31,798 bases of DNA, from positions 1 through 31,798 of IMG/VR virus record IMGVR_UViG_3300032893_000216, one strand, 5' to 3'. This document shows positions 18,257-31,798 of this stretch, in pieces; position 1 is the stretch's first letter, and each line of letters starts with the position of its first letter. The notes beneath the pieces were generated by a model, which worked only from the letters and a program-made list of their open reading frames with translations, was not told the origin of the DNA and did not search any database. The stretch is from a virus. A program made the position numbers and the translations under genes.

Positions 18257-18712
18257 ATGGCGAACCAGTCTGCATTTACAAGCCTAAGACAAGAGCCGCT
18301 CCAGAGTAGAGTGCAGGACAATATTGCAAAAGTCCTTACCCCAATTTCAAAAAACCTAAACGGCACACCAATAATGGGCGCCCCTCCCCCGGCATGGATT
18401 TCGCCCGTATTGCTGAATGTGTGGGCCAATTTCGGGGCACCGTATGCCGTTGCCGGGTACCATCTCGACGCCCTGAGGTATGTGCACATAAAGGGACGTG
18501 TCAAAAACACATCCGGCGCTGGCTCCTCTGCTGTCATTTTTACGCTTCCGTTGGGTTATAGGCCAATGGAGACTCACCGCATCTCGGCGCTTGGTGATGG
18601 CGTCACTCCAAACGCGCTCGTGATTAAGTCGGACGGCACCATTACGCCCGCCTCTGCAATTGGTGCTGGCAATTCAATCGACCTAGAAGTCACATTCCTT
18701 CAGGAGGCATAA
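18257..18712 (+). CDS. Small virion protein with tail-fibre-like C-terminal domain
   Basis: 151 residues from the ATG at 18257; a TTG two codons earlier is less likely. The N-terminal part is helical (MANQSAFTSLRQEPLQSRVQ), with a Pro-rich turn. The C-terminal half (from about 75) reads HLDALRYVHIKGRVKNTSGA, then VIFTLPLGYRP and a LVIKSDGTITPASAIGAG-type ending. This last module recurs at the tips of phage tail fibres and head fibres. It overlaps the tail nozzle gene by one base. A small fibre or appendage attached to the tail is the likely role. Confidence 0.65.
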   Translation: MANQSAFTSLRQEPLQSRVQDNIAKVLTPISKNLNGTPIMGAPPPAWISPVLLNVWANFGAPYAVAGYHLDALRYVHIKGRVKNTSGAGSSAVIFTLPLGYRPMETHRISALGDGVTPNALVIKSDGTITPASAIGAGNSIDLEVTFLQEA

Positions 18713-21700
18713 TGTCCGTTGATGGCCTCAACTTCCAGTCCGTGGAACTCAAATTCACGGAGGGAATGGATACAAAGACAAATAAAAAGCTGTCTCTCCC
18801 TGCTAAGTGGAACCTTGTCCGCAACGGCACACTGACGGCCGACTATGCCATTTCAAAAAGAGATGGAATAACTCCGCTTGTTGCGACGCAAAACAGCAAC
18901 TGTCTTGCGACGCATGACAACGAATTATTAGCAATCAGTGGTCAATTCGTGAGGTCAATTCAGCTTGCCACAAGCCCAGCCGTTTCGGTCGGCAAGCCTG
19001 GCCAACTTGGTTTCGTCGAAACAACAAGTAAGCCAATTACAAACACAGGAAGCTATCAGGACCAGTTTGATTGTGCATATGGCAACGGCTTTACGGTGTA
19101 TGTCTACAGGCAATTCACCTCATCCATTGGAATTGCCGTCTCTGGAATAAACGTGAATGTGGTTGATGAGCAAACTGGAAATGTTGTTGCCAGTTTTTCA
19201 CCCAGGTCAACGGCCACGTCGCATCATCCGAGAGTAGTTTTTTCTCATGATGTCTTTTACGTTCTGTATGCTGACTCAGCCACGGCATCTATTTATGCAA
19301 GGGTGTACATACCGACAGAAGCCACTGGCACACTTGGAGCCGAGACTGTTGTAGAAAATACAAACGTCAAGTCCCTTGCGTTTGATGCTGAGTCTTTCAT
19401 TCTCAGCGGCAACTCGAGGGGATGTTTGTTTGCGTATGGTTGGACAGATGGCGTTACGAGCGTAAGAGCCAAGTCAATATCATCGACAGCACCTAATTCC
19501 GGAACTGAATACACGGTGGCAGTTGGCTCCTCGGTAAATGTAATTACGGAGGCCCAGCTTCCAAACGCAAACCTCGTTTCTGTTGGCTGCACAATGCTAG
19601 GTGTTTGGGCTGGCATAGTCTCTCAGGGGATTGGTGCCACAGCCATGTGCGGCATCGCCGCGCGACTCATCGATAGCACCATGGCCCTGACTTCTGCAGC
19701 AGTTCAGGTCGACTCGTCCGTTGGCGTGACGGCCGGTGCAAGTCATATTTGTGGCTCTCCAATTCCATCCACCAATAGCGCACTCATTTGTGCTGACAGG
19801 CGCTCCGAAATCGGAACGAATGGACAATGGCCAATAAGAAGCGTCATCATTACAACGACAAACGGAACCAACATAAACATAAGCGTCGGTCCGCAGACTA
19901 TTGCAAATTCAAACACGTATGCTGACCCCAATTTCATTGTGGCAGCCACGCCGGTCGGCCCACAGGGCCCGTTCATTTATGGAAAGCCAATCATAATAGG
20001 CAACCCAATAACAACATTCGGAGCCTCTATTTTACCGGTGGCCGTTTCTGACACCCTAAACCCACAGACGGGGACCACCACGCTCAACCAGCAGTCTTCA
20101 TTTTTTTTGATTGATGCCGTTGCCGGGCCGGTTGTTGGCAAGGCGCAGTACGGTAGTTTTTTGGCCGAGAGTCAGACTTTTATTTCTGGCACTCCATCCA
20201 CAAACGGAGGCTCTCCGTGTTCCACGCCGGTGGTTCCATCTGGTTATGCCATAGCTGGGCCAGTGCTGACGACGCTTGCGATTGTTACTTCGGCAACTGG
20301 CACCTCAAACCTAAGCCAGTCAAACCCGACAAGGTTGACGATTTCTCCAAATACAACAAGGTCATTTATAAAGGCCCAGCTGGGCACTTCGACATACTTC
20401 GCCGGTGGCATGCTGTCGACGTTTGATGGAAACAGGGCCGTAGAACAAGGTTTCGCTCTTTTCCCGGAGGGTATATATGCAGCCGGCAACGGCGCAGGCA
20501 CTGGCAATGTCCATGATGGCACATACCAGGTTGTGGCTATTTATGAATGGATTGATGGAGCCAACCAGCGCCACCAGTCAGCCCCATCATTGCCTCAGTC
20601 CGTGGTTGTAAATACTGGAGGAGCAAACACGGGGTCCATTACGATTAAGGTCCCCACCCTTCCGCTCACTCAAAAGCAATTGTTTTATACGAAAACATAT
20701 GTGACACAAAACGCAGGCACAATATTCAACTATTCTGGCGTGACGAACTATTCCTCGTCTGGCGCCTTCAGCACCTCAACAATAACTGCCGACATTACGA
20801 CGCTGGCGTCGAATGAGATTTTGTACACACAGCCAGACCAATCAGGAACGACACTAGCCAATGATGCCCCAGGACCATGCACTGCCATCGGAGTTCACCA
20901 GGGCAGGTTGTGGGCAAATGACTCAGACAACCCACTCCTCTTCAGATATTCTCAACAACTGGTCAACACGGTTGGGCTTCAATTTAATGAGTCGCTGTCT
21001 GGAATGCTTCCAACAGAGGCCGCGTCAGTTGTTGGATTTTCATCTCTTGACGACAAGCAAATAATATTCGGCCAAAGAAAGCTGTATGTGGTTACTGGCA
21101 GCGGGCCTAATTCTGCGGGGCTCAACAACGGATACTCGGACCCGATTGAAATACCCTCAGACGTCGGCTGTAGCGAGCCGAGAAGCATTCTCAAGATGCC
21201 ATTCGGCATCATCTTCAAGTCGGCCAAGGGCTTTTACTTGCTGAGTCGAGACCTAAGCACTCGCTATATTGGCGAGGGAGTTGCTGCGTTTGATTCAAAC
21301 GACGTAACCAGTGCTGTACTCTTGGAGGACAGGCAGGAATGCAGATTCACTAGCACATCTGGAACGCAGCTTATTTACTGCTACCAGGTGAATGCATGGG
21401 CAACGACGCAGATAGCATCATCCGCAACATCCAATTCACTCTATCAACCAGCCGATGCTGTTTGGTGGCCCACCCTGGGCGTCTATGTCTCAACGTCATT
21501 GCTTGATGGCCTCAACAAGGACCAGCCTGGCGTATATTCGGACCAGGTAGGTACTGGCTCGCAGACGGCCGTCAACCTCACGCTGCGAACCTCGTTTCTT
21601 CATATGGCCTCACTTGAGGGATTCCAGAGGGTGAGATGGCTCTACCTTACCACCTCGGCCCCAAGTGCACCGAATAGCACGCTTGGAATTCTCGTTGATT

Positions 21701-21972
21701 ATGATGACATATATTCAGCGGTGACGCCGCCAGGCGCACCAGGTGAATACTCAATCTCAAAACAACTTGGAAACATCTCGTTCCCAAATCCAGCGTGCAT
21801 AGACTTGAGGCACAAGCTTGTGCGCCAGAAATGCAAGTCTGTTGCTTTTACATTTACAGACAACCCTGCTGCTCCTGGAGAACCTGGGCTCAATGGTTTC
21901 CAGGCCATCTTGATGCAAGTTGGAATCAAGAAGGGCACTAACAAACTTCCAGCAGCTCAATCCATCGGGTGA
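18712..21972 (+). CDS. Large tail nozzle or hub-type protein
   Basis: 1086 residues, the largest gene here. It is beta-rich with many Ser, Thr, Asn and Gly. Segments such as HQGRLWANDSDNPLLFRYSQ, VGFSSLDDKQIIFGQRKLYV and GIIFKSAKGFYLLSRDLSTR are typical of the propeller-like tail hubs of podoviruses (the P22 gp10 or T7 gp12 kind), which extend the portal channel. An internal YQVVAIYEWIDGANQRHQSA stretch fits a fibronectin-like module around residue 615. The protein is longer than classical members, with extra N-terminal strands. The role as nozzle is inferred from its length, position after the adaptor, and the hub-like motifs. Confidence 0.65.
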   Translation: MSVDGLNFQSVELKFTEGMDTKTNKKLSLPAKWNLVRNGTLTADYAISKRDGITPLVATQNSNCLATHDNELLAISGQFVRSIQLATSPAVSVGKPGQLGFVETTSKPITNTGSYQDQFDCAYGNGFTVYVYRQFTSSIGIAVSGINVNVVDEQTGNVVASFSPRSTATSHHPRVVFSHDVFYVLYADSATASIYARVYIPTEATGTLGAETVVENTNVKSLAFDAESFILSGNSRGCLFAYGWTDGVTSVRAKSISSTAPNSGTEYTVAVGSSVNVITEAQLPNANLVSVGCTMLGVWAGIVSQGIGATAMCGIAARLIDSTMALTSAAVQVDSSVGVTAGASHICGSPIPSTNSALICADRRSEIGTNGQWPIRSVIITTTNGTNINISVGPQTIANSNTYADPNFIVAATPVGPQGPFIYGKPIIIGNPITTFGASILPVAVSDTLNPQTGTTTLNQQSSFFLIDAVAGPVVGKAQYGSFLAESQTFISGTPSTNGGSPCSTPVVPSGYAIAGPVLTTLAIVTSATGTSNLSQSNPTRLTISPNTTRSFIKAQLGTSTYFAGGMLSTFDGNRAVEQGFALFPEGIYAAGNGAGTGNVHDGTYQVVAIYEWIDGANQRHQSAPSLPQSVVVNTGGANTGSITIKVPTLPLTQKQLFYTKTYVTQNAGTIFNYSGVTNYSSSGAFSTSTITADITTLASNEILYTQPDQSGTTLANDAPGPCTAIGVHQGRLWANDSDNPLLFRYSQQLVNTVGLQFNESLSGMLPTEAASVVGFSSLDDKQIIFGQRKLYVVTGSGPNSAGLNNGYSDPIEIPSDVGCSEPRSILKMPFGIIFKSAKGFYLLSRDLSTRYIGEGVAAFDSNDVTSAVLLEDRQECRFTSTSGTQLIYCYQVNAWATTQIASSATSNSLYQPADAVWWPTLGVYVSTSLLDGLNKDQPGVYSDQVGTGSQTAVNLTLRTSFLHMASLEGFQRVRWLYLTTSAPSAPNSTLGILVDYDDIYSAVTPPGAPGEYSISKQLGNISFPNPACIDLRHKLVRQKCKSVAFTFTDNPAAPGEPGLNGFQAILMQVGIKKGTNKLPAAQSIG

Positions 21973-21975
21973 CGC

Positions 21976-23751
21976 ATGGCCAGAATTCTCAATCCAGATG
22001 ACCCAAGCAATGGCCGCTCGAATTTAGGAACCAGTGGCGGCGTTGATAAGATTTCAACCGGGTACGGCCTAAGGCCAGACATTGGCTCCCCAGGCATGTA
22101 CAACGGGCCGGGCTCATACGGTACAGCCCCGGGCGGAATCGATTTAAACTCCGTTGTCGACAACAAAATTAGTAGCTCAGCGCCTGGCGCAAGTCTCAAC
22201 GTGTCTCAGCCAGACGAAGAGCGCATGCGAATGCAGGCCCTGCTTGCTCAACTCAACAGCACAGCGCAAACAGGGAATGGCACATGGCAACAGGCGCTTC
22301 AGAATGCGACTACTGGAGCCAATGCATCGGCCGAAGCACTTGGGCAGTCGCAAGCAGGCCAAAATCCTTTATTGGCCTTGAGAAACATAGGCAACGCCCA
22401 AGCGGCCAACAACCAACAGGCGATAGGGCAAGGCAATATTTTGCGTGCACAAACACAGCAACAAGCCTTGCAGGACTTAGCCACAATTGGAAGCGCAACA
22501 AACACCACAGACGCACAACAGGCCGCACAGGCCGCTGCGGCTCGACAGAGCCTGAGAGAAGCCAACAATGACATAGCGGCCAATAATTTCAAAAATACGG
22601 CGGGCATTCTCGGAGGAGTCGGTCAGGCGGCCATGGCGATTGGAGGCGCCTCACAAGGTGGGTCTGTGCAGGGCAAGGCCAGTGTGTTTGGAGACAGCGA
22701 GGCAAACGACACGGTTCCGGCATGGCTCTCACCTGGAGAGATTGTCCTTCCTCGCTCCGTGACACAGTCTGGCAATGCGCCTGAGGCCGCGGCGGCATTT
22801 GTGCAAGCAATTCAGCGTCAACACAACTCAAAACACCAACACCACTTTGCGCCTGGCGGAAGAGTGGACCCCAACACGGCAGGAGACCAGCCTGGGTCAA
22901 TTCCAGTAGACACAAAAGACGCCAGTGGACTCTATGGAAGTATTGGACACCCAGTTGACGCCAACGGAGTGCAGACGGATGCGCAGGGGAACCAGACTCT
23001 CTTGGAAGACCCATCTGTCACGGCTGGCTCTGGCTGGAATCCATTAAGTGGACTTCTTCCTGGCCAAACACAAGAGGCGGCCTCAACGCTTAATGGTGGC
23101 CTTCTTTCCAACATAAACTACAACCAGTCGCGCGGTCAGAATATTGACACAGCAAACGCACTTCAAAGAATGTCACAGGGGCTTGGGCCTTCGGTTGTTG
23201 GCCAGCAGGCTCAAAATGCGCGCGACAGCAATATAGCGGATGCTCTCCGTGCAATGGCTGGTGGCAGAGCCGACCAATCTCTTGCCGGGAAACTTGGGTC
23301 GGCCAACCAGGGCGTTGCTAATCAAGCAGGGCAAACGGCACAGGTGGAGTCAGAAAGAGGACTGCAGGGTTACGCAAACGCCCTTCAAAACCAGCGCGCG
23401 CAGGACTTGGCATTTGCACAGGCACAACAGCAAGCACAATGGAGGAATACTATGCTCAATTCTGGTATTGCCTCCGCACAACAAGCCACACTCGCTAATC
23501 TCTTGAGTGGTGCTGGCCAGGCGGCAACAGCCGGCTCCAGACTCTTTAAGAGCAACTCTCCAGGCGCAACATCATCACTTTCCGATGCTGGGGCGGCCAA
23601 CGGAGGTGACTTATCTTCGCTTGGTGACGTCTCCGGGGTTGAGGATGTCAGCAATATCGAGGGTGGCGAGGGATTTTCTTCAGGTGGCGAGATTGAAGAT
23701 GAGCGCGTCAAATCATTCTTGGCCGCCATGAGAAAGAGAAGGGCCGCATGA
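21976..23751 (+). CDS. Internal virion protein, Gln/Ala/Asn-rich (ejection protein 1)
   Basis: 591 residues, starting three bases after the nozzle gene. Gln, Ala, Asn and Gly dominate; long helical repeats (ALGQSQAGQNPLLALRNIGN) are mixed with low-complexity segments. A characteristic NDTVPAWLSPGEIVLPRSVT segment, known from phage internal or tape-like proteins, lies at about 240. A double-glycine element (FAPGGRV) is near 295 and another (SSGGEIEDERVKSF) near the C-terminus, which ends in a basic helix. The likely role is a protein packaged in the head and ejected with the DNA. No enzyme domain is seen. Confidence 0.62.
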   Translation: MARILNPDDPSNGRSNLGTSGGVDKISTGYGLRPDIGSPGMYNGPGSYGTAPGGIDLNSVVDNKISSSAPGASLNVSQPDEERMRMQALLAQLNSTAQTGNGTWQQALQNATTGANASAEALGQSQAGQNPLLALRNIGNAQAANNQQAIGQGNILRAQTQQQALQDLATIGSATNTTDAQQAAQAAAARQSLREANNDIAANNFKNTAGILGGVGQAAMAIGGASQGGSVQGKASVFGDSEANDTVPAWLSPGEIVLPRSVTQSGNAPEAAAAFVQAIQRQHNSKHQHHFAPGGRVDPNTAGDQPGSIPVDTKDASGLYGSIGHPVDANGVQTDAQGNQTLLEDPSVTAGSGWNPLSGLLPGQTQEAASTLNGGLLSNINYNQSRGQNIDTANALQRMSQGLGPSVVGQQAQNARDSNIADALRAMAGGRADQSLAGKLGSANQGVANQAGQTAQVESERGLQGYANALQNQRAQDLAFAQAQQQAQWRNTMLNSGIASAQQATLANLLSGAGQAATAGSRLFKSNSPGATSSLSDAGAANGGDLSSLGDVSGVEDVSNIEGGEGFSSGGEIEDERVKSFLAAMRKRRAA

Positions 23752-25508
23752 ATCCAGACAGAGTTAAACTCGTCGGTGAAGACGACAAATTCTACACGCT
23801 AAATGATGGCAAGGCCCAATTTCGGGTACCCAAGAAAGGGCTATCCGACCACATGCATGTGAAGATTCGTGGGCTTGCGCCAAAAATGGCCGACGGTGGA
23901 GAGGCTGTCCTTTCAAATGAAGAGCTCGCTGAAAAATATCCTGGTTTTGTGGCGTCGGTTCCTCCCGGAGAAACAGAATTCACTGTCGCCAACAAACTAG
24001 GCATTCCGCTCAATATCGAGAAGCCTGAGCTCATTGGCAATAGGGTCGAGGAGCCAGAGGGGCGCAAGACAGGGCTCGCCCATGAGCAATTGGCCGCCAT
24101 TGCTCTGCCGCCAGTTCCAACGCAAGCGCCGGTTCCGGTCGAGCCGCCCGCAGTAGTTGCGCCTGCTCCAACCGTACCGGTAGACATGAACATGGTGCGG
24201 AAAGCAATCTCCGCGAATCCGCGCAAATCCGTAGCGACAACTGCGCCGTCCATACTCGACTCGACGGCCCAGGCTGAGCTCGAGGGCAAAAGACAAGAGG
24301 CGGGCGTGCAGGCCAAAATGGGCGAGGAGCTTCAAAACATCGAACTTGGGCGACAGCGCGCACTTGAGAAACACATGGCTGAGCAACAAAAACTCTGGAC
24401 AGATTCTCAAGCCGAGACACGTGCGGCAATTGAGCAACACAAACAACTCTCGGACAAGATGGCCTCAGAAAGCGTAGAAATAGACCCAGGAAGATTCTGG
24501 TCAAGTCGTTCAGCGCCTCAAAAGATTGCCGGCGTTATAGGTCTCGTTCTTGGTTCTCTTGGTGCCAGCAGGGACGGCGTCAACAGGGCTGCCGGAATGC
24601 TTGATAACTATATTTCTCAAGACCTGGAGCTACAGAAGGCAGAGCATGAGGCGCGACTAAAAAAGGGCGCCCAGGCGCTTGAGGCCGCCAATTCTAATTA
24701 CTCAATGAATCGACGACTCTTTGAGGACAAAGAGGCCGCCATGAATGCCGCGCACGCAACGCAGCTAGACATTGTTGCGAGCCAGGTTGCGCAAGCTGGT
24801 GCCAAATTCTCCAGCCCCATGGCTCAGGCACAATTGAAGACACTAGAGGGCCAACTTCGAGGCCAAAGCGAGGCGAGACGACAGGTTGCCGGCGAGGCTT
24901 ATTTTAAGAATAAACTTGAGACTCGTAAGCTTGACCTGGAAGAAAAGAAAATCAACATGGAGGCGGCGGCCAAGAATGCCGGGAGTGAATTTGTATCGCC
25001 AGGGTACACACTCATGCCTGGAGCAAAGCCAAAACAAGAGGAACTTGGAAACTGGCGACAAGCGCTTGCTTCGAAAAACACAATTTCGACCCAGGTCGAA
25101 AATCTAAAGAAACTTATTGATGAGGGCGGCCTGAAGAATCCATTGAGCGACAATTCAAACAGAGCTGAATCTATTGTGGGAGACCTGAAGGTTGCACTGA
25201 AAGACCTCGCCAAGTTGGGCGCGCTTTCTGGCTCAGATTACGCCCTCATTGATGCTCAAATACCAGACCCTACAAAACTCAGAAACATCGTCAAGAGCGA
25301 CTCGGCCATGAAAGAGAAGCTCAATCAATTCGTGCGCAATGCGGAGTCTAAATTTGATGCACACTCGCAGTCGCTCGGCATCGTGAAGACAGGAGTCCCG
25401 AGCGCATCATCACAGGTTGATGCGGCCAAACAGTGGCTTGCCGCCAATCCGAACGACCCAAGAGCCGCGTCGGTTCGCGCCAAGCTTGAACAGATGGGTG
25501 CACAGTGA
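23748..25508 (+). CDS. Internal virion protein with long coiled coil (ejection protein 2)
   Basis: 586 residues, ATGA-coupled to the previous gene. The N-terminal domain (1-105) is compact and contains APKMADGGEAVLSNEELAEK. A Pro/Val linker spans about 121-145. Residues 173-240 form a coiled coil. A hydrophobic stretch at 258-273 (QKIAGVIGLVLGSLGA) could enter a membrane. A further long helical region rich in Glu, Lys and Ala follows. This profile (coiled coil, one hydrophobic segment, long helices) fits a core protein that helps DNA cross the cell envelope, as T7 or P22 ejection proteins do. No lytic transglycosylase motif was found. Confidence 0.6.
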   Translation: MNPDRVKLVGEDDKFYTLNDGKAQFRVPKKGLSDHMHVKIRGLAPKMADGGEAVLSNEELAEKYPGFVASVPPGETEFTVANKLGIPLNIEKPELIGNRVEEPEGRKTGLAHEQLAAIALPPVPTQAPVPVEPPAVVAPAPTVPVDMNMVRKAISANPRKSVATTAPSILDSTAQAELEGKRQEAGVQAKMGEELQNIELGRQRALEKHMAEQQKLWTDSQAETRAAIEQHKQLSDKMASESVEIDPGRFWSSRSAPQKIAGVIGLVLGSLGASRDGVNRAAGMLDNYISQDLELQKAEHEARLKKGAQALEAANSNYSMNRRLFEDKEAAMNAAHATQLDIVASQVAQAGAKFSSPMAQAQLKTLEGQLRGQSEARRQVAGEAYFKNKLETRKLDLEEKKINMEAAAKNAGSEFVSPGYTLMPGAKPKQEELGNWRQALASKNTISTQVENLKKLIDEGGLKNPLSDNSNRAESIVGDLKVALKDLAKLGALSGSDYALIDAQIPDPTKLRNIVKSDSAMKEKLNQFVRNAESKFDAHSQSLGIVKTGVPSASSQVDAAKQWLAANPNDPRAASVRAKLEQMGAQ

Positions 25509-27742
25509 GTGGTTTTGACCCCGATGCGTTTGTTGCTGGTGGCGCGACTGGCGGCTTCGACCCCGATGCGTTCGCCAACAGCGGCCCTCTGCCGGCGGGC
25601 GCCGTCAAACAGAAAGACGGCACATACCTCGTGCCAACGCCAGACGGCCCAGCGCACGTCGATGCCGAGGGTAACCCGATTGGCGCGGCGGCGGTTGGCG
25701 AGAAATCAACCAAGGAGAAGGCGCTCGAAACGGCGCTCGCATTCACACACGGCGCCGCCCAGGGGCTGACACCCTACGTTGCCGGGGCAAAAAGCGTGGC
25801 CGAGGAGTTGTTCGGCGACAAGCGCACGCCTGGTGCCAAGACGCTTGGCGACATCTACCGACACGGGCGCGACGCTGCCGCGCAAGAGACATCGGCGGCA
25901 ACCGAGGCGCACCCAATCGCAAACATCGCCGGCAGCATCGCCACGACAGCCATGGCGCCCACATCGGTTGCGGGTCGACTTGCTGTGGCAAGTGGGCTTG
26001 GCGCTGCCAATGCGGCCACTTCAAGTAAGGCCGACCTGACGAGGGGCGAGGGGGCAGAGCTTCTCAAAGACACGCTTGAGGGCGGCGCTATTGGCCTTGG
26101 AGCTGGCGTATTAGGTGAGGGGCTTGGGTATGGCCTGCGCAAGGCCGGCAGTTACTTCACCGGGAAGGCCGGAGAAGCGGTCGCTCAGCAGGCCGCCAAA
26201 GACGCTGCAGCGGTCGAGGAGGAGATTGGGAAGCTTCGCGGCGCCCTTGGCTCTGAAACACAGCAGGGCTCGCGCATGTTGGAGAACATTCAGCGCGCGG
26301 CGGCTGGGTTGCCAGAAAAGACGGGCATAGCGGGCGCGGTTGGCGAGGGTCTACAAAAGGAGGCCATGGCGGCCCTGGAGTCGCCCGCCTCAAGAGAGCT
26401 CGCTGAGGGCGTACTGAAGCGCAACCTCGCCGAGCTGCCAGGCAAGCAGGCCTCAATCGAGGCACTTCAGGGCGAGCTCGCGGCCCGCACAGCGACGCAG
26501 GCCGAGGAGGCGGCCAAGCGCACAGCCGAGTACTTCTCGAAGCCATTGGTTGCGAGCGAGATTGTGCCACGCCTCAAGACGCTGGCGCCACGCTTTGGAA
26601 TGGCGGCCTTCGGCATGGCCACCGGAGCCCTCTACGACGCCACACTTGGCGACGGCAGCGGGCGCGGAATAGCCGGCGGTTTTGCTGGCTCGGTGCTTGG
26701 CGCACCCGGTGTCAGACAGATGCTGAAAAACGTCGCTTCGTCGCCGCGCGTCCGCGTGGCCGTCGCGAACAAGATGGCGGGGCTGCTTCAAAAGGCCTCG
26801 CAGGCCATCGGCCTTGGCTTGGTGCCAACACTCAACACGCTGGCACCACAGATGATGCATGAGAAGGACCTGGGCGAGCCGTCACTAGCGGCGGAGCAGC
26901 TTGTTGCTCGAGGTGGCCTTAAGTCAGTCATTTCAGACAACCCGCCAGACCCCGTGCGCCTCTCTGGCGTCAATGCGCCGCAGTCGGAGCTCGACAGGGC
27001 CATCATGCAGACCGCTGGCCTTATGACGGTTGCCGGCGCGCTCGACGACCACCACCAGAAAGAAGACGCGGCCTTGACCAGTGTGGCCCGGGGCGACAAG
27101 TCGGAGCCAAGTGAGAAACACGTTGTCCTGCCTGAAGACATCCACACTCTCGCGTCAAACCCAGAACTAATCATAAAACGAGCCGCCAACAACATGGGCG
27201 GGCTTGTTGATGTCGCCCCCGCCATACACGCCAATGTCGTAGCAACCACGCAGCGCGCCGTACAATACTTAGCAAAAATATCAGCAGTTCCGCCCAAGAC
27301 TGGCCCAATGGCGCCAGATTGGACACCAAGCCAAGCAGAGAAGTGGACCATCTCAAAGGCTTCGGAGGTAATTCAGGATCCTCTTTCAATACTAAAACAC
27401 GCCGCCTCTGGGACGCTTACCAAAGAGCAAATTGAAGCGCTGAAATTTGTTTACCCAATGCTAACAAGGTCAATTCAAGACAAGGCGCTCCAACTGGCCA
27501 CTGCCGGCAAAGACATGCCCTATAAATCGAGACTCTCTTTTGGGCTTCTTACTGGCATTGACTTCGATGGGACAATGAAGACATTGCAGTCAAATCAAGC
27601 CGCTATTTCTTTAGACAAAGATAAGATGCCAAATAAGTCTGGCGGAATAAAACCAACACAAAAGGGACTGTCTGACATTTCAATTGCAGACAGAACTGCA
27701 ACAGCCGGACAATCACAAGAAAACAGGGAGAGACGAGAATGA
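25505..27742 (+). CDS. Large internal virion protein (ejection protein 3), mosaic
   Basis: 745 residues with a GTG start that overlaps the previous stop. The N-terminus has a direct repeat GFDPDAF (about 4-10 and 18-24), a motif I know from phage internal proteins. Gly/Ala-rich helical segments such as GAIGLGAGVLGEGLGYGLRK could insert in membranes. The C-terminal quarter is helical and contains SNPELIIKRAANNMGGLVDV and MLTRSIQDKALQLA. The first 550 codons are much GC-richer than the rest and nearly lack the phage's favoured GAGTC words, so the N-terminal module was probably exchanged. The role is inferred from order after two other ejection-type genes. Confidence 0.6.
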   Translation: MSGFDPDAFVAGGATGGFDPDAFANSGPLPAGAVKQKDGTYLVPTPDGPAHVDAEGNPIGAAAVGEKSTKEKALETALAFTHGAAQGLTPYVAGAKSVAEELFGDKRTPGAKTLGDIYRHGRDAAAQETSAATEAHPIANIAGSIATTAMAPTSVAGRLAVASGLGAANAATSSKADLTRGEGAELLKDTLEGGAIGLGAGVLGEGLGYGLRKAGSYFTGKAGEAVAQQAAKDAAAVEEEIGKLRGALGSETQQGSRMLENIQRAAAGLPEKTGIAGAVGEGLQKEAMAALESPASRELAEGVLKRNLAELPGKQASIEALQGELAARTATQAEEAAKRTAEYFSKPLVASEIVPRLKTLAPRFGMAAFGMATGALYDATLGDGSGRGIAGGFAGSVLGAPGVRQMLKNVASSPRVRVAVANKMAGLLQKASQAIGLGLVPTLNTLAPQMMHEKDLGEPSLAAEQLVARGGLKSVISDNPPDPVRLSGVNAPQSELDRAIMQTAGLMTVAGALDDHHQKEDAALTSVARGDKSEPSEKHVVLPEDIHTLASNPELIIKRAANNMGGLVDVAPAIHANVVATTQRAVQYLAKISAVPPKTGPMAPDWTPSQAEKWTISKASEVIQDPLSILKHAASGTLTKEQIEALKFVYPMLTRSIQDKALQLATAGKDMPYKSRLSFGLLTGIDFDGTMKTLQSNQAAISLDKDKMPNKSGGIKPTQKGLSDISIADRTATAGQSQENRERRE

Positions 27743-28084: not shown

Positions 28085-28498
28085 ATGGCTGGCACTACCT
28101 ACGCCCCACTCAGGCCACCAACTGAGAGGGACACGATTCATCTACTCAATGGCGCCCCAATCTATCTCGGAGCCCTCGTTTCCACGGGAGCGGCCGTCAA
28201 CAACGCAACAACCGCCACGCCATTCAATGCCTCGGCCACAACCACAGCCTCGCTTTCTGGCACGCTGGCCGGAAAGGTGTTGCTCCTTCAGCCAACTGGG
28301 GCCGGTCTCATTTCTCCGGCAACGTCAACAACGCTAACCATTGCGGTGCAAACAACCATTCCACCACTTCTTGGAACAACGCCCGGTTTTCTCATTCAGA
28401 ATGCGTCTGCTCAAATCATTGTTATGCGGCCAGACACAGGGTGGTTGCAATGGCTCCCGTCCGCGAGCTCCAACCTTCTGGTGTGGGAATTGACGTGA
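28085..28498 (+). CDS. Small Ala/Thr-rich virion protein
   Basis: 137 residues from the ATG at 28085, one base after the previous stop; the frame is open further upstream but those codons overlap the previous gene. It starts MAGTTYAPLRPPTERDTIHL and is rich in Ala, Thr, Ser and Leu with alternating strands (TTTASLSGTLAGKVLLLQPT). It ends in QWLPSASSNLLVWELT. A beta-structured decoration or fibre-base protein is likely. It ends in a GTGA overlap with the first exported gene. Confidence 0.6.
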   Translation: MAGTTYAPLRPPTERDTIHLLNGAPIYLGALVSTGAAVNNATTATPFNASATTTASLSGTLAGKVLLLQPTGAGLISPATSTTLTIAVQTTIPPLLGTTPGFLIQNASAQIIVMRPDTGWLQWLPSASSNLLVWELT

Positions 28499-29808
28499 TT
28501 CGACTCATTGCCATGTCGGCCGCGCTTGCTTCCACGGCCTCCATGGCATGGCCAGGCTGGGGAAACACCTCGCTAGGCCCGTGTCCGGCTGGCTATGTTG
28601 GCGGCGGCCTTACTCCGTGTAGACCCAGCGGGTATGCTGGGTTTGAATTTGCGCCGTCTTCGGGGGCTGGCTTGGGCTCTCTGTGTGGGTGCTCTACGGT
28701 TACGGGCGCCAACGGGGAGGCGCTGACTTTCTCTCGCGCTGGCAATGCAACATGTAGTCTCACAAATTTCGACACACCTAGGGTTGGTGACTTTCTTACG
28801 TGTGCCGCCAACTTCCCCAGAATCATGAGAAACGCGAAAGGCACTCTTGGTTATTTCCAAGAGCATGGGCGCACCAACCTCGTGCTTTGGAGTGAGGATT
28901 TCTCTAACGTGGCTTGGACGACTCTAGCCACAGTGACAACAGACACAGACTTGTCGCCAGATGGAAGCCAAGACGCGGACACCATAAATGACATAGATGT
29001 TGGCTCCAACCAAACCGTTTGTCAGTTGGTCACAAGCACGGCGCAGGTGCAATATGCCGGCTCCATCTACCTGAAGGCCAAGTCGCTTACTTCTGCCTCT
29101 CTCTCTGTTGTTGGCGTTGGAAACTCAGCCGGAGACTGTGCCACAGGAGTGCAGGCTCTTGACGGTGGGTACAACAAGCTCTCATGTCTCTCGCCGGCAG
29201 TTTATGGCGCTGGAAAAACTGGCCTTATGCTGTGCCTCAGCATTGGCAATGCGGCTAGTGATACCGGGACAATAGTCGCATGGGGTGCCCAACTCGTGGC
29301 CTTTACCGTACCAGGAACGGACTACATTCGAATACCTGATTCATACATCAAAACAACCTCAGCATCTGTTGTGCGCGGCACCGACTCGATGACGTTTCAA
29401 TACTCTCCAGCATCATCAAATGTTATGTCTGTGTCTGCAGTATTCTCTGTACCATCAATCCCAAACACAGACGGCGGAATTGTTCAGGTGGCCGGCAACG
29501 ACGCCGGAAGCGTTGCGGAACTACGCCAATTCACCACGGGCACAATGACGGCCACTGTTGGCGGAACAAGTTCGACACCAACCGGGCTCTTGTCTCTTGG
29601 CGCAGTCAATAGGGCCTCTATTTATTGGGACGGCGCCAATCAAAACTCGTGCAGCAACTCTAGCTGTGTTTCGGCCACATCAATCAACGCCCTACCAGGC
29701 ACCCCATGGACCGTGTGGATTGGTAGAGAGTCTTCCTCATTGAGAACCATAGAAGGAATTGTCAGCCAAGTATGCCTAGACAATGTCAGCGCTACGAGGT
29801 GTCAGTGA
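28495..29808 (+). CDS. Exported Cys-rich protein with tail-appendage-like module, paralogue 1
   Basis: 437 residues from the GTG at 28495, chosen because it overlaps the previous stop (GTGA) and starts a clear signal peptide: MIRLIAMSAALASTASMA, then WPGWGN, with an A-x-A-type cleavage site. The mature part has CPAGYVGGGLTPC, then CGC, and 14 cysteines in total, an even number suited to disulphides outside the cytoplasm. A central RTNLVLWSEDFSNVAW element and WGAQLVAF-type strands belong to a beta-sandwich module I know from phage tail appendages and lectin-like proteins. It ends VCLDNVSATRCQ. It resembles the next protein in layout and cysteine positions. Host-surface binding is a possible role; nothing proves it. 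Confidence 0.65.
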   Translation: MIRLIAMSAALASTASMAWPGWGNTSLGPCPAGYVGGGLTPCRPSGYAGFEFAPSSGAGLGSLCGCSTVTGANGEALTFSRAGNATCSLTNFDTPRVGDFLTCAANFPRIMRNAKGTLGYFQEHGRTNLVLWSEDFSNVAWTTLATVTTDTDLSPDGSQDADTINDIDVGSNQTVCQLVTSTAQVQYAGSIYLKAKSLTSASLSVVGVGNSAGDCATGVQALDGGYNKLSCLSPAVYGAGKTGLMLCLSIGNAASDTGTIVAWGAQLVAFTVPGTDYIRIPDSYIKTTSASVVRGTDSMTFQYSPASSNVMSVSAVFSVPSIPNTDGGIVQVAGNDAGSVAELRQFTTGTMTATVGGTSSTPTGLLSLGAVNRASIYWDGANQNSCSNSSCVSATSINALPGTPWTVWIGRESSSLRTIEGIVSQVCLDNVSATRCQ

Positions 29809-31097
29809 GACTCCTTATTCTTCTGGCTTCGCTTCTTTCTGTTGATGTCATGGCTTGGCCATTCGGACGAGGCGGAGGCCTCACGTGTCCAGCTGGATTT
29901 GTCGGCGGAGGCCTTGTGCCATGCACTCAGGCGCCAGCGTTTTTTGAATTCGCAAATGTCACCGCTAACGGACTGGGCGCAGCATGTGCCTGTACTGCTG
30001 TGACTGGCTCCAATGGCGAGACGGTGACATTTACACGCTCCTCTTTGGGTACATGCACCGCAACCCCGGCCGGAGGCCTTTCTGTTTCAGGAATAAGGGC
30101 CAATGATTTAATAAACTGCATAAACAACAAGCCGAGAACGGAATATGATGGCTCTGGCGTGCTTGGTCTTCTTGTCGAAGAGGCCAGAACCAATCAAATC
30201 CTACGCAATACGTCAATGGACAACGCCGCATGGTCATCAACGGCCACCGTAACGGCAGACCAGGGCGCATCTCCTGCTGGAGGACAAACAGCGGACCTCC
30301 TCACAGACAACAGTGCTGGCTCAATGCAGGGAAGTTCGCAGTCGGTAGGTTCCGCCACTCAAGTCCTAGACACCGTCAGCTGCTACGTGGAGGCGGTGAC
30401 AGCATCCTCGGCCACAATTCAGTTAGTCGGTTCTGGAAACTCGGCCGGCGACTGCACTGCCTCAATAAACACACTCAGCACAACGACATGGAATAGGCTT
30501 TCATGCACAAGCGCTGTCGCGTATGGCGCCGGGATTCTAACAAAAACACTCAACATTCTTGTTGGAGACAGCGCCTCTGTTACTGGGTCAATTCTGGTAT
30601 GGGGATGTCAGCTTGAGGATGGAGCGTTTATGACGTCTCCGATTGCAACCATTGCCGCAGCAGTGACTAGAGTTGCGGACCAAGCTACTGTCACTTTATC
30701 CCCATCGCCAATTACAACCATTAGCGTCGCTCTTAACGCCGGGCTTCCAACAACCACAAACACAAGCGCAGATGTCATTTTTATAACCGGCTCGTCTGGC
30801 GTTGTTGAAATGTCGCTTCTAACTCCCACGTCACTCAGGAGCTATTTCGCAGTCGCAAACACCGTTGACGGACCCATCTCATTCACCAAAAACACAAATG
30901 TCAGATTTGCTGCATTTTATGACGGAACAAGTCGGGCCTCATGCATCAATGGCGCTTGCGCCACAACCTCAGGCGCCATTTCGTTTTCAGCAACACCGTG
31001 GACAACTTACATAGGCGGATTTAGCTCGCTCAGCTTCAACTCTAACGCCATCATCTCTAGGGTGTGTGTTGACCCCGTCTCATCGAGGTGCCGCTAA
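29805..31097 (+). CDS. Exported Cys-rich protein with tail-appendage-like module, paralogue 2
   Basis: 430 residues from the GTG at 29805 (GTGA overlap). Signal peptide MRLLILLASLLSVDVMA is followed by WPFGRG, matching the paralogue's AWP start. Mature motifs: CPAGFVGGGLVPC, ACACTAV, then RTNQILRNTSMDNAAW and SILVWGCQLEDGAFMTSP, the known order of the appendage-type module (R-T-N ... W ... W-G-Q-L-E). The end is VCVDPVSSRCR. There are 14 cysteines here too, in a similar order. The two genes are therefore a tandem duplication. Export is suggested by the signal sequence and even cysteine number. What it binds is unknown. Confidence 0.65.
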   Translation: MRLLILLASLLSVDVMAWPFGRGGGLTCPAGFVGGGLVPCTQAPAFFEFANVTANGLGAACACTAVTGSNGETVTFTRSSLGTCTATPAGGLSVSGIRANDLINCINNKPRTEYDGSGVLGLLVEEARTNQILRNTSMDNAAWSSTATVTADQGASPAGGQTADLLTDNSAGSMQGSSQSVGSATQVLDTVSCYVEAVTASSATIQLVGSGNSAGDCTASINTLSTTTWNRLSCTSAVAYGAGILTKTLNILVGDSASVTGSILVWGCQLEDGAFMTSPIATIAAAVTRVADQATVTLSPSPITTISVALNAGLPTTTNTSADVIFITGSSGVVEMSLLTPTSLRSYFAVANTVDGPISFTKNTNVRFAAFYDGTSRASCINGACATTSGAISFSATPWTTYIGGFSSLSFNSNAIISRVCVDPVSSRCR

Positions 31098-31690
31098 TGC
31101 AACGAGTACTGGTTACAATCGCAATAGTCGGTGGTCTTTCGTATTCTGTTTACCTTGTGACTGGCGGCACCGTCTCACAGCAAACCGCCTTTCTCCAGGA
31201 TGCCGGGTACACCGGGGCCACGCATGTCGCATCTTGCCCAGTCATTTTCAACACAACATGTCTGGCGCAGGCACAGGACGCCGGAATACCTGTACACAAG
31301 TACGAGATGCTGCGATTCCCCGTTGCTGTGCGCCTACTTTCCGATGGCGGCCGCGACGTGCAATTACCTCCGATGAATGTTGATGCTGTGCGTGCGTGTT
31401 TTGAGGTTATGGATTGGACTCAATGCACTCTCGTGACAGCCGCCAGCGCACCGTCAATTGCGGCACTTATAGGACAACAGCTCCCTTTTTCTTTGGCTGG
31501 AGCTGTGCGCATGTGCGTGCGTCCAAACATGGACGCGGGCCTGACATGCATGCGTCGCGGTGTTGATGGCGGCCCATTCTCATTTGGCGACAGAAACGTT
31601 TTTCAACTCGGAGACGCTGTTAATTCGAATGACTGCGAGTCTGTTCAATGTGCGGTTTATTTCGGAGATGACCCAGAGGTGGACCTATGA
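31097..31690 (+). CDS. Exported or membrane-anchored Cys-rich protein
   Basis: 197 residues from the ATG at 31097, overlapping the previous stop by one base (TAATG). The N-terminus MQRVLVTIAIVGGLSYSVYL is a signal sequence or membrane anchor. The mature part has eight cysteines, among them CPVIFNTTC and CESVQC, and a repeated Ala/Gln pattern (CLAQAQDAGIPVHKYEMLRF). It follows two exported Cys-rich genes, so it may work with them at the cell surface. I do not recognise the family. The even cysteine number again suggests disulphides. Confidence 0.55.
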   Translation: MQRVLVTIAIVGGLSYSVYLVTGGTVSQQTAFLQDAGYTGATHVASCPVIFNTTCLAQAQDAGIPVHKYEMLRFPVAVRLLSDGGRDVQLPPMNVDAVRACFEVMDWTQCTLVTAASAPSIAALIGQQLPFSLAGAVRMCVRPNMDAGLTCMRRGVDGGPFSFGDRNVFQLGDAVNSNDCESVQCAVYFGDDPEVDL

Positions 31691-31798
31691 GCTCCGAAGA
31701 AGAGATGCGGGTGCTGAGGGCAGAAATGCTTTATTTGCGCGAGAGGCACCTCAAGCTTGAGAGGCGATTCGACGAGTACACAGAATCTGTCAACAGCC
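31687..31798 (+). CDS. Coiled-coil protein, cut by window edge
   Basis: The ATG at 31687 overlaps the stop of the previous gene (ATGA). The visible 37 residues are a charged coiled coil (MSSEEEMRVLRAEMLYLRER, then HLKLERRFDEYTESV). The rest lies outside the window, so its size and role are unknown. Small coiled-coil proteins with a C-terminal membrane segment often belong to phage lysis cassettes, but that cannot be checked here. Confidence 0.5.
   Translation, partial: MSSEEEMRVLRAEMLYLRERHLKLERRFDEYTESVNS

Follow-up and report, generated by a model that had tools for sequence, protein, structure and literature searches.

Candidate exported, cysteine-rich lectin-type adhesins in the late genes of a predicted Myxococcota virus

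The present study analyzes three consecutive genes near the end of a viral DNA stretch of 31,798 nucleotides (IMG/VR record IMGVR_UViG_3300032893_000216; "the window" below means this whole stretch), of which genes 1 and 2 encode lectin-type proteins with apparent signal peptides and gene 3, called gene C below, a smaller cysteine-rich protein. Patterns detected are consistent with genes 1 and 2 forming an adhesion module that is exported by the Sec pathway, acquires its disulphides in the periplasm and is attached to particles when the cell lyses, a reading to which, taken whole, we give an even chance. At the level of sequence, export is well supported, and so are the signals, the disulphides, homology with virion adhesins, the host phylum and conservation among relatives. 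Docking at lysis we infer from the N-terminus of a fibre protein, p64, of phage Mx8, from gene position, and from the linkage of a short peptide, NPxGPIF, to another fibre gene.

Signals, lectin-type domains and cysteines

All three genes appear to be read from their natural starts, because in each case the start codon and the stop of the preceding gene overlap: GTG at 28495 for gene 1 and GTG at 29805 for gene 2, both in GTGA overlaps, and ATG at 31097 for gene C, in a TAATG overlap. For gene 2 a longer reading opens at ATG 29772, but GTG 29805 is preferred because the longer form would bury the signal and add one cysteine. Read in this way, all on the plus strand, gene 1 (28495-29808) encodes 437 amino acids (aa) with 14 cysteines, gene 2 (29805-31097) 430 aa with 14 cysteines, and gene C (31097-31690) 197 aa with eight, as the initial annotation had it. 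The N-termini are MIRLIAMSAALASTASMA and, after the predicted cut, WPGW in gene 1, MRLLILLASLLSVDVMA and then WPFG in gene 2, and MQRVLVTIAIVGGLSYSVYLV in gene C. In a hydropathy scan these were the three most hydrophobic N-termini among all called window genes (2.3, 3.1 and 2.9 for genes 1 to 3, with the runner-up at 2.0). In genes 1 and 2 the hydrophobic start is followed by small residues at -3 and -1, giving three-part, cleavable-looking signals of 18 aa (28495-28548, cut between SMA and WP) and 17 aa (29805-29855, cut between VMA and WP) with a common small-x-A/WP junction. Signals were called throughout by hydropathy and the -3/-1 rule rather than by a dedicated predictor. By this rule, the three signal sequences proposed earlier do hold as hydrophobic segments at the overlap-supported starts, with those of genes 1 and 2 looking cleavable and that of gene C, which has no AxA cut site, looking more like an anchor.

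Genes 1 and 2 appear to encode lectin-type adhesins of the virion kind, which agrees with the tail-appendage-like character first assigned to them. Both match phrog_5939, a tail-protein family (E 1.4e-6 for gene 1 and E 1.3e-20 for gene 2, the latter as a 441-aa reading), and the profile of the lectin family finds as its closest solved structure the RcGTA head spike fibre Rcc01080 (PDB 6tb9, E 1.3e-22), a match shared by gene 2, followed by phage E217 gp45 and Pa193 gp46, all of them particle proteins. The part of gene 2 that is homologous to virion spike proteins is an inserted carbohydrate-binding-like domain (30132-30629, plus strand, approximately residues 110-275). Pfam gave nothing useful for genes 1-3. 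A structural model of the lectin contains two beta-sandwich domains at low confidence (predicted local distance difference test, pLDDT, 54; predicted template modelling score, pTM, 0.47), and fold statements are for that reason kept to the level of domains. The outer domain resembles laminin-G, CBM40 and pentraxin folds (Z 13-15.6, with 140-170 residues superposed at a root-mean-square deviation, rmsd, of about 3). For the inserted domain the resemblance is to a Pa193 tail protein (Z 14.3, rmsd 3.1, 158 residues aligned). Binding of polysaccharide is thus predicted for the lectins from their CBM40-, laminin-G- and pentraxin-like folds.

Cysteine number alone is no marker of export, since a 1086-aa tail protein of the window (18712-21972) also has 14 cysteines and carries no signal. 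With this qualification, the early description of the cassette as exported and of disulphide type holds. Disulphides are very likely in the signal-bearing proteins, because cysteine pairs come and go together and because these proteins have even counts. Across 17 genome segments, with the first 22 residues left out of the counts, an even number was found in 61 of the 69 signal-like proteins with at least two cysteines (p 3e-11), a set chosen by rule that includes some membrane proteins, and in 66 of 117 other proteins with at least two (p 0.2); cysteine density was 2.4 per 100 aa in the signal-like proteins versus 0.9 in the others. Among the variable cysteine columns of the aligned lectins, five pairs had identical presence patterns (10, 5, 2, 6 and 7 sequences), which fits disulphides, where both partners are predicted to be lost in the same sequences. 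For lectin 2 the predicted pairs are 61-84, 63-105, 193-268, 217-234 and 380-385. A permutation that ignores relatedness gave an expectation of 0.09 such pairs and never reached five in 20000 trials.

The signal also appears to be conserved. There were 15 relatives with the start present, namely two circular Manatee Spring phage genomes (MW202637 and MW202477), 11 environmental virus loci and two prophages, and a hydrophobic signal start was found in 17 of 17 lectins, counting the two of the window together with L003-L007, L009-L014, L021, L022 and the prophages L043 and L044. The lectin bodies are just 25-53% identical, approximately, and the signals differ, yet the signal is kept in all 15 relatives, which is more than chance would give. 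The L003 lectin has a lipoprotein-type signal (LLLGAMGC). An additional fragment, L008, reads like L005 in its first 260 residues, and the distant relatives L017, L019 and L020, in which the start is present, lack a signal and resemble common fibre-type proteins. One exported lectin lies on a siphovirus-like contig (L021), and given this contig the trait seems to span tail types. An alternative explanation could be that the proteins are not exported, the hydrophobic N-termini being virion-internal anchors or chance runs and the cysteines being reduced. This would be in line with signals that are read by rule and are in many cases short and uncharged (such as MLTALLLILA, cut before Q), and with a shallow model of gene C in which the N-terminus forms strands, but it would not account for the unbroken retention of the hydrophobic start in 17/17 lectins, the lipobox variant, the AxA-type junctions, the association of cysteine parity and paired cysteine loss with the signal, or the unrelated signals that precede one and the same fibre domain (see below), and we consider it very improbable.

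The host phylum appears to be Myxococcota. Two prophages were found with the alignment in 195 genomes of this phylum, to which Pyxidicoccus belongs, and for the endolysin family encoded beside several cassettes the three best-matching cellular relatives are from Myxococcus and Pyxidicoccus. A first scan of cellular genome contigs with the lectin alignment gave no match, and the endolysin alignment did match. Chromosomal proteins of Myxococcus and Pyxidicoccus with a phage endolysin domain (L027, L028 and L029) were seen at approximately 42-44% identity.

The exported module in relatives and in cultured phages

The cassette, at first described as a set of three genes, is better regarded as belonging to a more extensive exported module for adhesion in a lineage of Myxococcota phages, the trait being present also in Mx8 and Mx9. 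In most of the clade a small exported gene A is followed by the lectin and then by a relative of gene C, and further signal-bearing, cysteine-rich proteins reach up to the lysis genes, the large upstream proteins being without signal and almost without cysteine. In the window the latter correspond to three large proteins of internal-virion-protein type with no cysteine and no signal (21976-27742, plus strand). The window homologue of gene A (28085-28498, plus strand) matches gene A of L004 (BLASTP, E 4e-9) and of L007 (E 6e-7); gene A is exported and contains cysteines in the relatives, and the window copy, with no signal and zero cysteines, is the exception. Another gene, whose ATG at 31687 overlaps the gene C stop, leaves the window at 31798. 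The exported module may extend past the window end.

Relatives of gene C were recognised by synteny in L004, L005, L007, L009, L010, L011, L013, L022 and L043, and have in common a hydrophobic start and a cysteine-rich domain with DAG/DGG motifs; in L014 the gene at that place has a lipobox-like variant. No relative was found in the phage collection, nor did the protein searched singly find one in viral contigs. The sequence of gene C suggests that it is probably membrane-anchored rather than secreted. A model built from seven sequences (m6e46e0a81498; pLDDT 72, pTM 0.65) gave no match below E 0.28 in a PDB search, and in it the hydrophobic start forms two strands, not a membrane helix. For this reason the case for export is less secure for gene C than for the lectins, weak as the argument from so shallow an alignment is.

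In Mx8 and in Mx9 the internal virion proteins are followed by several proteins that bear signals. In Mx8 p64 and Mx9 p14 (annotated as a putative tail fiber protein) a signal stands directly ahead of a fibre domain, RNxxGTY, which in Mx8 p64 begins RNSVGTYTLPGGNPVVSGTTISSTWANSTL. Homologues of p64 in Stenotrophomonas phage BUCT555 and Bradyrhizobium phage ppBjS10J-1 begin where this fibre domain starts, and the domain lies no more than five residues from the longest-frame start in 73 of 80 viral loci (63 distinct sequences). A signal was present in five of the 80, i.e. in Mx8 and in four from viruses without assigned host. Among prophage copies in Myxococcota, all five in which the N-terminus is present have one. 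These sequences suggest that a secretion signal has been put before an ordinary fibre N-terminus, and that cleavage would restore that N-terminus almost exactly. One signal-bearing fibre (L131, 2432-3394) belongs to a virus of unassigned host and possibly lies outside Myxococcota. Other fibre families are affected as well: in L003, L013 and L014, short fibre-type proteins (KTW..GE.ITANDLNANF and variants) encoded amid the structural genes bear signals, as does a relative of this type in L004. A search of the window lectins by tblastn returned neither Mx8 nor Mx9, and the literature searched on these phages contained no remark on export of their fibres. An exported GDSL-like hydrolase (Mx8 p67; L047, 38819-39367) and an exported lipase-type protein (Mx9 p15; L050, 6467-7192) adjoin the exported fibres.

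Docking at lysis and competing roles

In the proposed reading the window virus is a Myxococcota virus akin to Mx8 in gene order, and genes 1 and 2 would be its receptor-binding module. The lectins would carry Sec signal peptides when synthesised, pass through the inner membrane and have the signal removed, and several disulphides would form in the periplasm as the presumed site of folding, where gene C may serve as a membrane-anchored partner. Most likely, mature lectins would then remain periplasmic or bound at the outer membrane until the cell lyses, and dock by their N-termini onto released particles, the product being oxidised, protease-resistant adhesins, presumably for a host surface polysaccharide. 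Several patterns point this way. The cassette sits between internal virion proteins and lysis genes, the usual place of fibre genes; in Mx8-like podoviruses these usually come after the internal-virion-protein slot (PMC10386132). The complete ordinary N-terminus in Mx8 p64 speaks for docking. A further hint comes from NPxGPIF, a mature N-terminal peptide found just after the signal only in L006 (9923), L009 (7440), L012 (9914) and L043 (10571-12481), since a full T7-like gene for an adaptor fibre is likewise present in these four only; L010 has a short one and no NPxGPIF. The lectin bodies of the four are 26-46% identical, no closer to each other than to the remaining lectins. Among the roles listed in the initial annotation, addition to particles after lysis is thus the one favoured by the comparative evidence.

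Several observations weigh against docking. Export separates the lectins by a membrane from the particles being assembled, and the literature searched contained no example of a tailed phage with late docking. Gene C resembles an uncleaved anchor, which would be odd in a virion part. The Mx8 record calls p49, p54, p56 and p57 virion proteins and p64, p66 and p67 hypothetical, the basis of this naming not being stated. Some of these phages also carry a T7-like fibre that is not exported, so the exported set may be extra. Finally, the fibre-region genes of Mx4, a contractile Myxococcus phage, have no signals; the host does not force export, which is therefore a trait of the phage lineage and not of the host.

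The main rival to docking is display at the surface or in the periplasm of the infected cell for receptor masking or superinfection exclusion, in which infected cells and debris would stop capturing phage and gene C would anchor or guide the lectins. This accounts better than docking for the anchor and for the lipoprotein-type signal of L003, and it is consistent with the signals in general, with the lectin folds, with the precedent of T4 Spackle as a periplasmic exclusion protein (PMC7677548), and with the presence of the cassette in prophages, where an altered surface would matter. It fits less well with the location of the cassette among late genes, between those for the virion and those for lysis, which likewise counts against the earlier suggestion that the cassette blocks competing phages, although that suggestion keeps some probability. 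Nor would display explain why whole suites of differing fibre families are exported, one of them amid structural genes (L003, L004, L013 and L014), or why the Mx8 fibre retains a full ordinary N-terminus that display would make superfluous. Display is on balance unlikely, but deserves serious weight.

Two further roles are improbable, and to a similar degree. The exported fibres could be lysogenic-conversion adhesins that serve the host bacterium in attachment or prey recognition, as do the mosaic adhesive trimers (MAT) of Bdellovibrio, which are signal-bearing, phage-fibre-like, glycan-binding adhesins (PMC10769870). That two cassettes are prophage-borne would suit such a role, but the genes lie in a late operon adjoining lysis genes, and both complete environmental genomes encode a DNA polymerase of their own, with no integrase annotated in the parts that were seen. 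Alternatively, a periplasmic lectin and an anchored gene C may weaken the envelope together with endolysin and holin in a spanin-like manner. Endolysin and holin-type genes do adjoin, and gene C looks like a type II membrane protein; however, the lectin domains are akin to virion receptor-binding proteins and not to fusogens, and at several loci the lysis block contains small genes of its own for exported and membrane proteins.

Returning to docking, a broader possibility, which we hold a little less firmly than the reading for the window itself and at somewhat under even chances, is that a lineage of tailed phages finishes its particles outside the cytoplasm, with fibres that are secreted, oxidised and attached once the inner membrane is breached, so that assembly is split between compartments.

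Relation to known systems

Particles of tailed phages are normally built wholly in the reducing cytoplasm. If this lineage does export its fibres, either assembly continues across a membrane or fibre genes have become secreted effectors, and either would be new. Already known are the homologous domain, from the RcGTA spike and phrog_5939, and secreted phage-fibre-like adhesins as host proteins, in the Bdellovibrio MAT. We found no description of exported fibres encoded by tailed phages, in a search largely outside subscription papers, nor of compartment-split assembly for these phages; in the literature searched, the initial statement that no described system is known to have exactly this arrangement thus stands. 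Two candidate precedents were set aside: proteins of phage diversity-generating retroelements (DGR), among them lectins, are stated to lack signal peptides (PMC6199706), and PMC3556154 contains no precedent for exported fibres.

The RcGTA spike and phrog_5939 share with the window lectins a homologous carbohydrate-binding domain, with PRxxY...LLxExxxTN at the domain start and SxIPTxxxAVTR at the domain end. The RcGTA head spike fibre binds capsular polysaccharide and is a particle protein held by its N-terminal residues (PMC10218006), whereas the present lectins carry signal peptides and have 6-17 cysteines each. Periplasmic proteins of superinfection exclusion, such as T4 Spackle, are similar in being phage proteins that act in the periplasm, but Spackle is an early product inhibiting incoming tail lysozyme (PMC7677548), not a late-operon lectin. 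The Bdellovibrio MAT, compared by description (PMC10769870) and not by sequence, resemble the lectins as signal-bearing, tail-fibre-like, glycan-binding adhesins of a predatory bacterium, but are host-encoded and act on the predator surface; the present findings suggest a source for such secreted phage-like adhesins of predatory bacteria. Closest in arrangement are Mx8 and Mx9, which have the same gene order (internal virion proteins, signal-bearing fibre and cysteine-containing proteins, lysis genes) and the same host phylum, although their adhesin families differ from the window lectins. Mx8 is a classical cultured phage with the same trait, which makes the puzzle testable.

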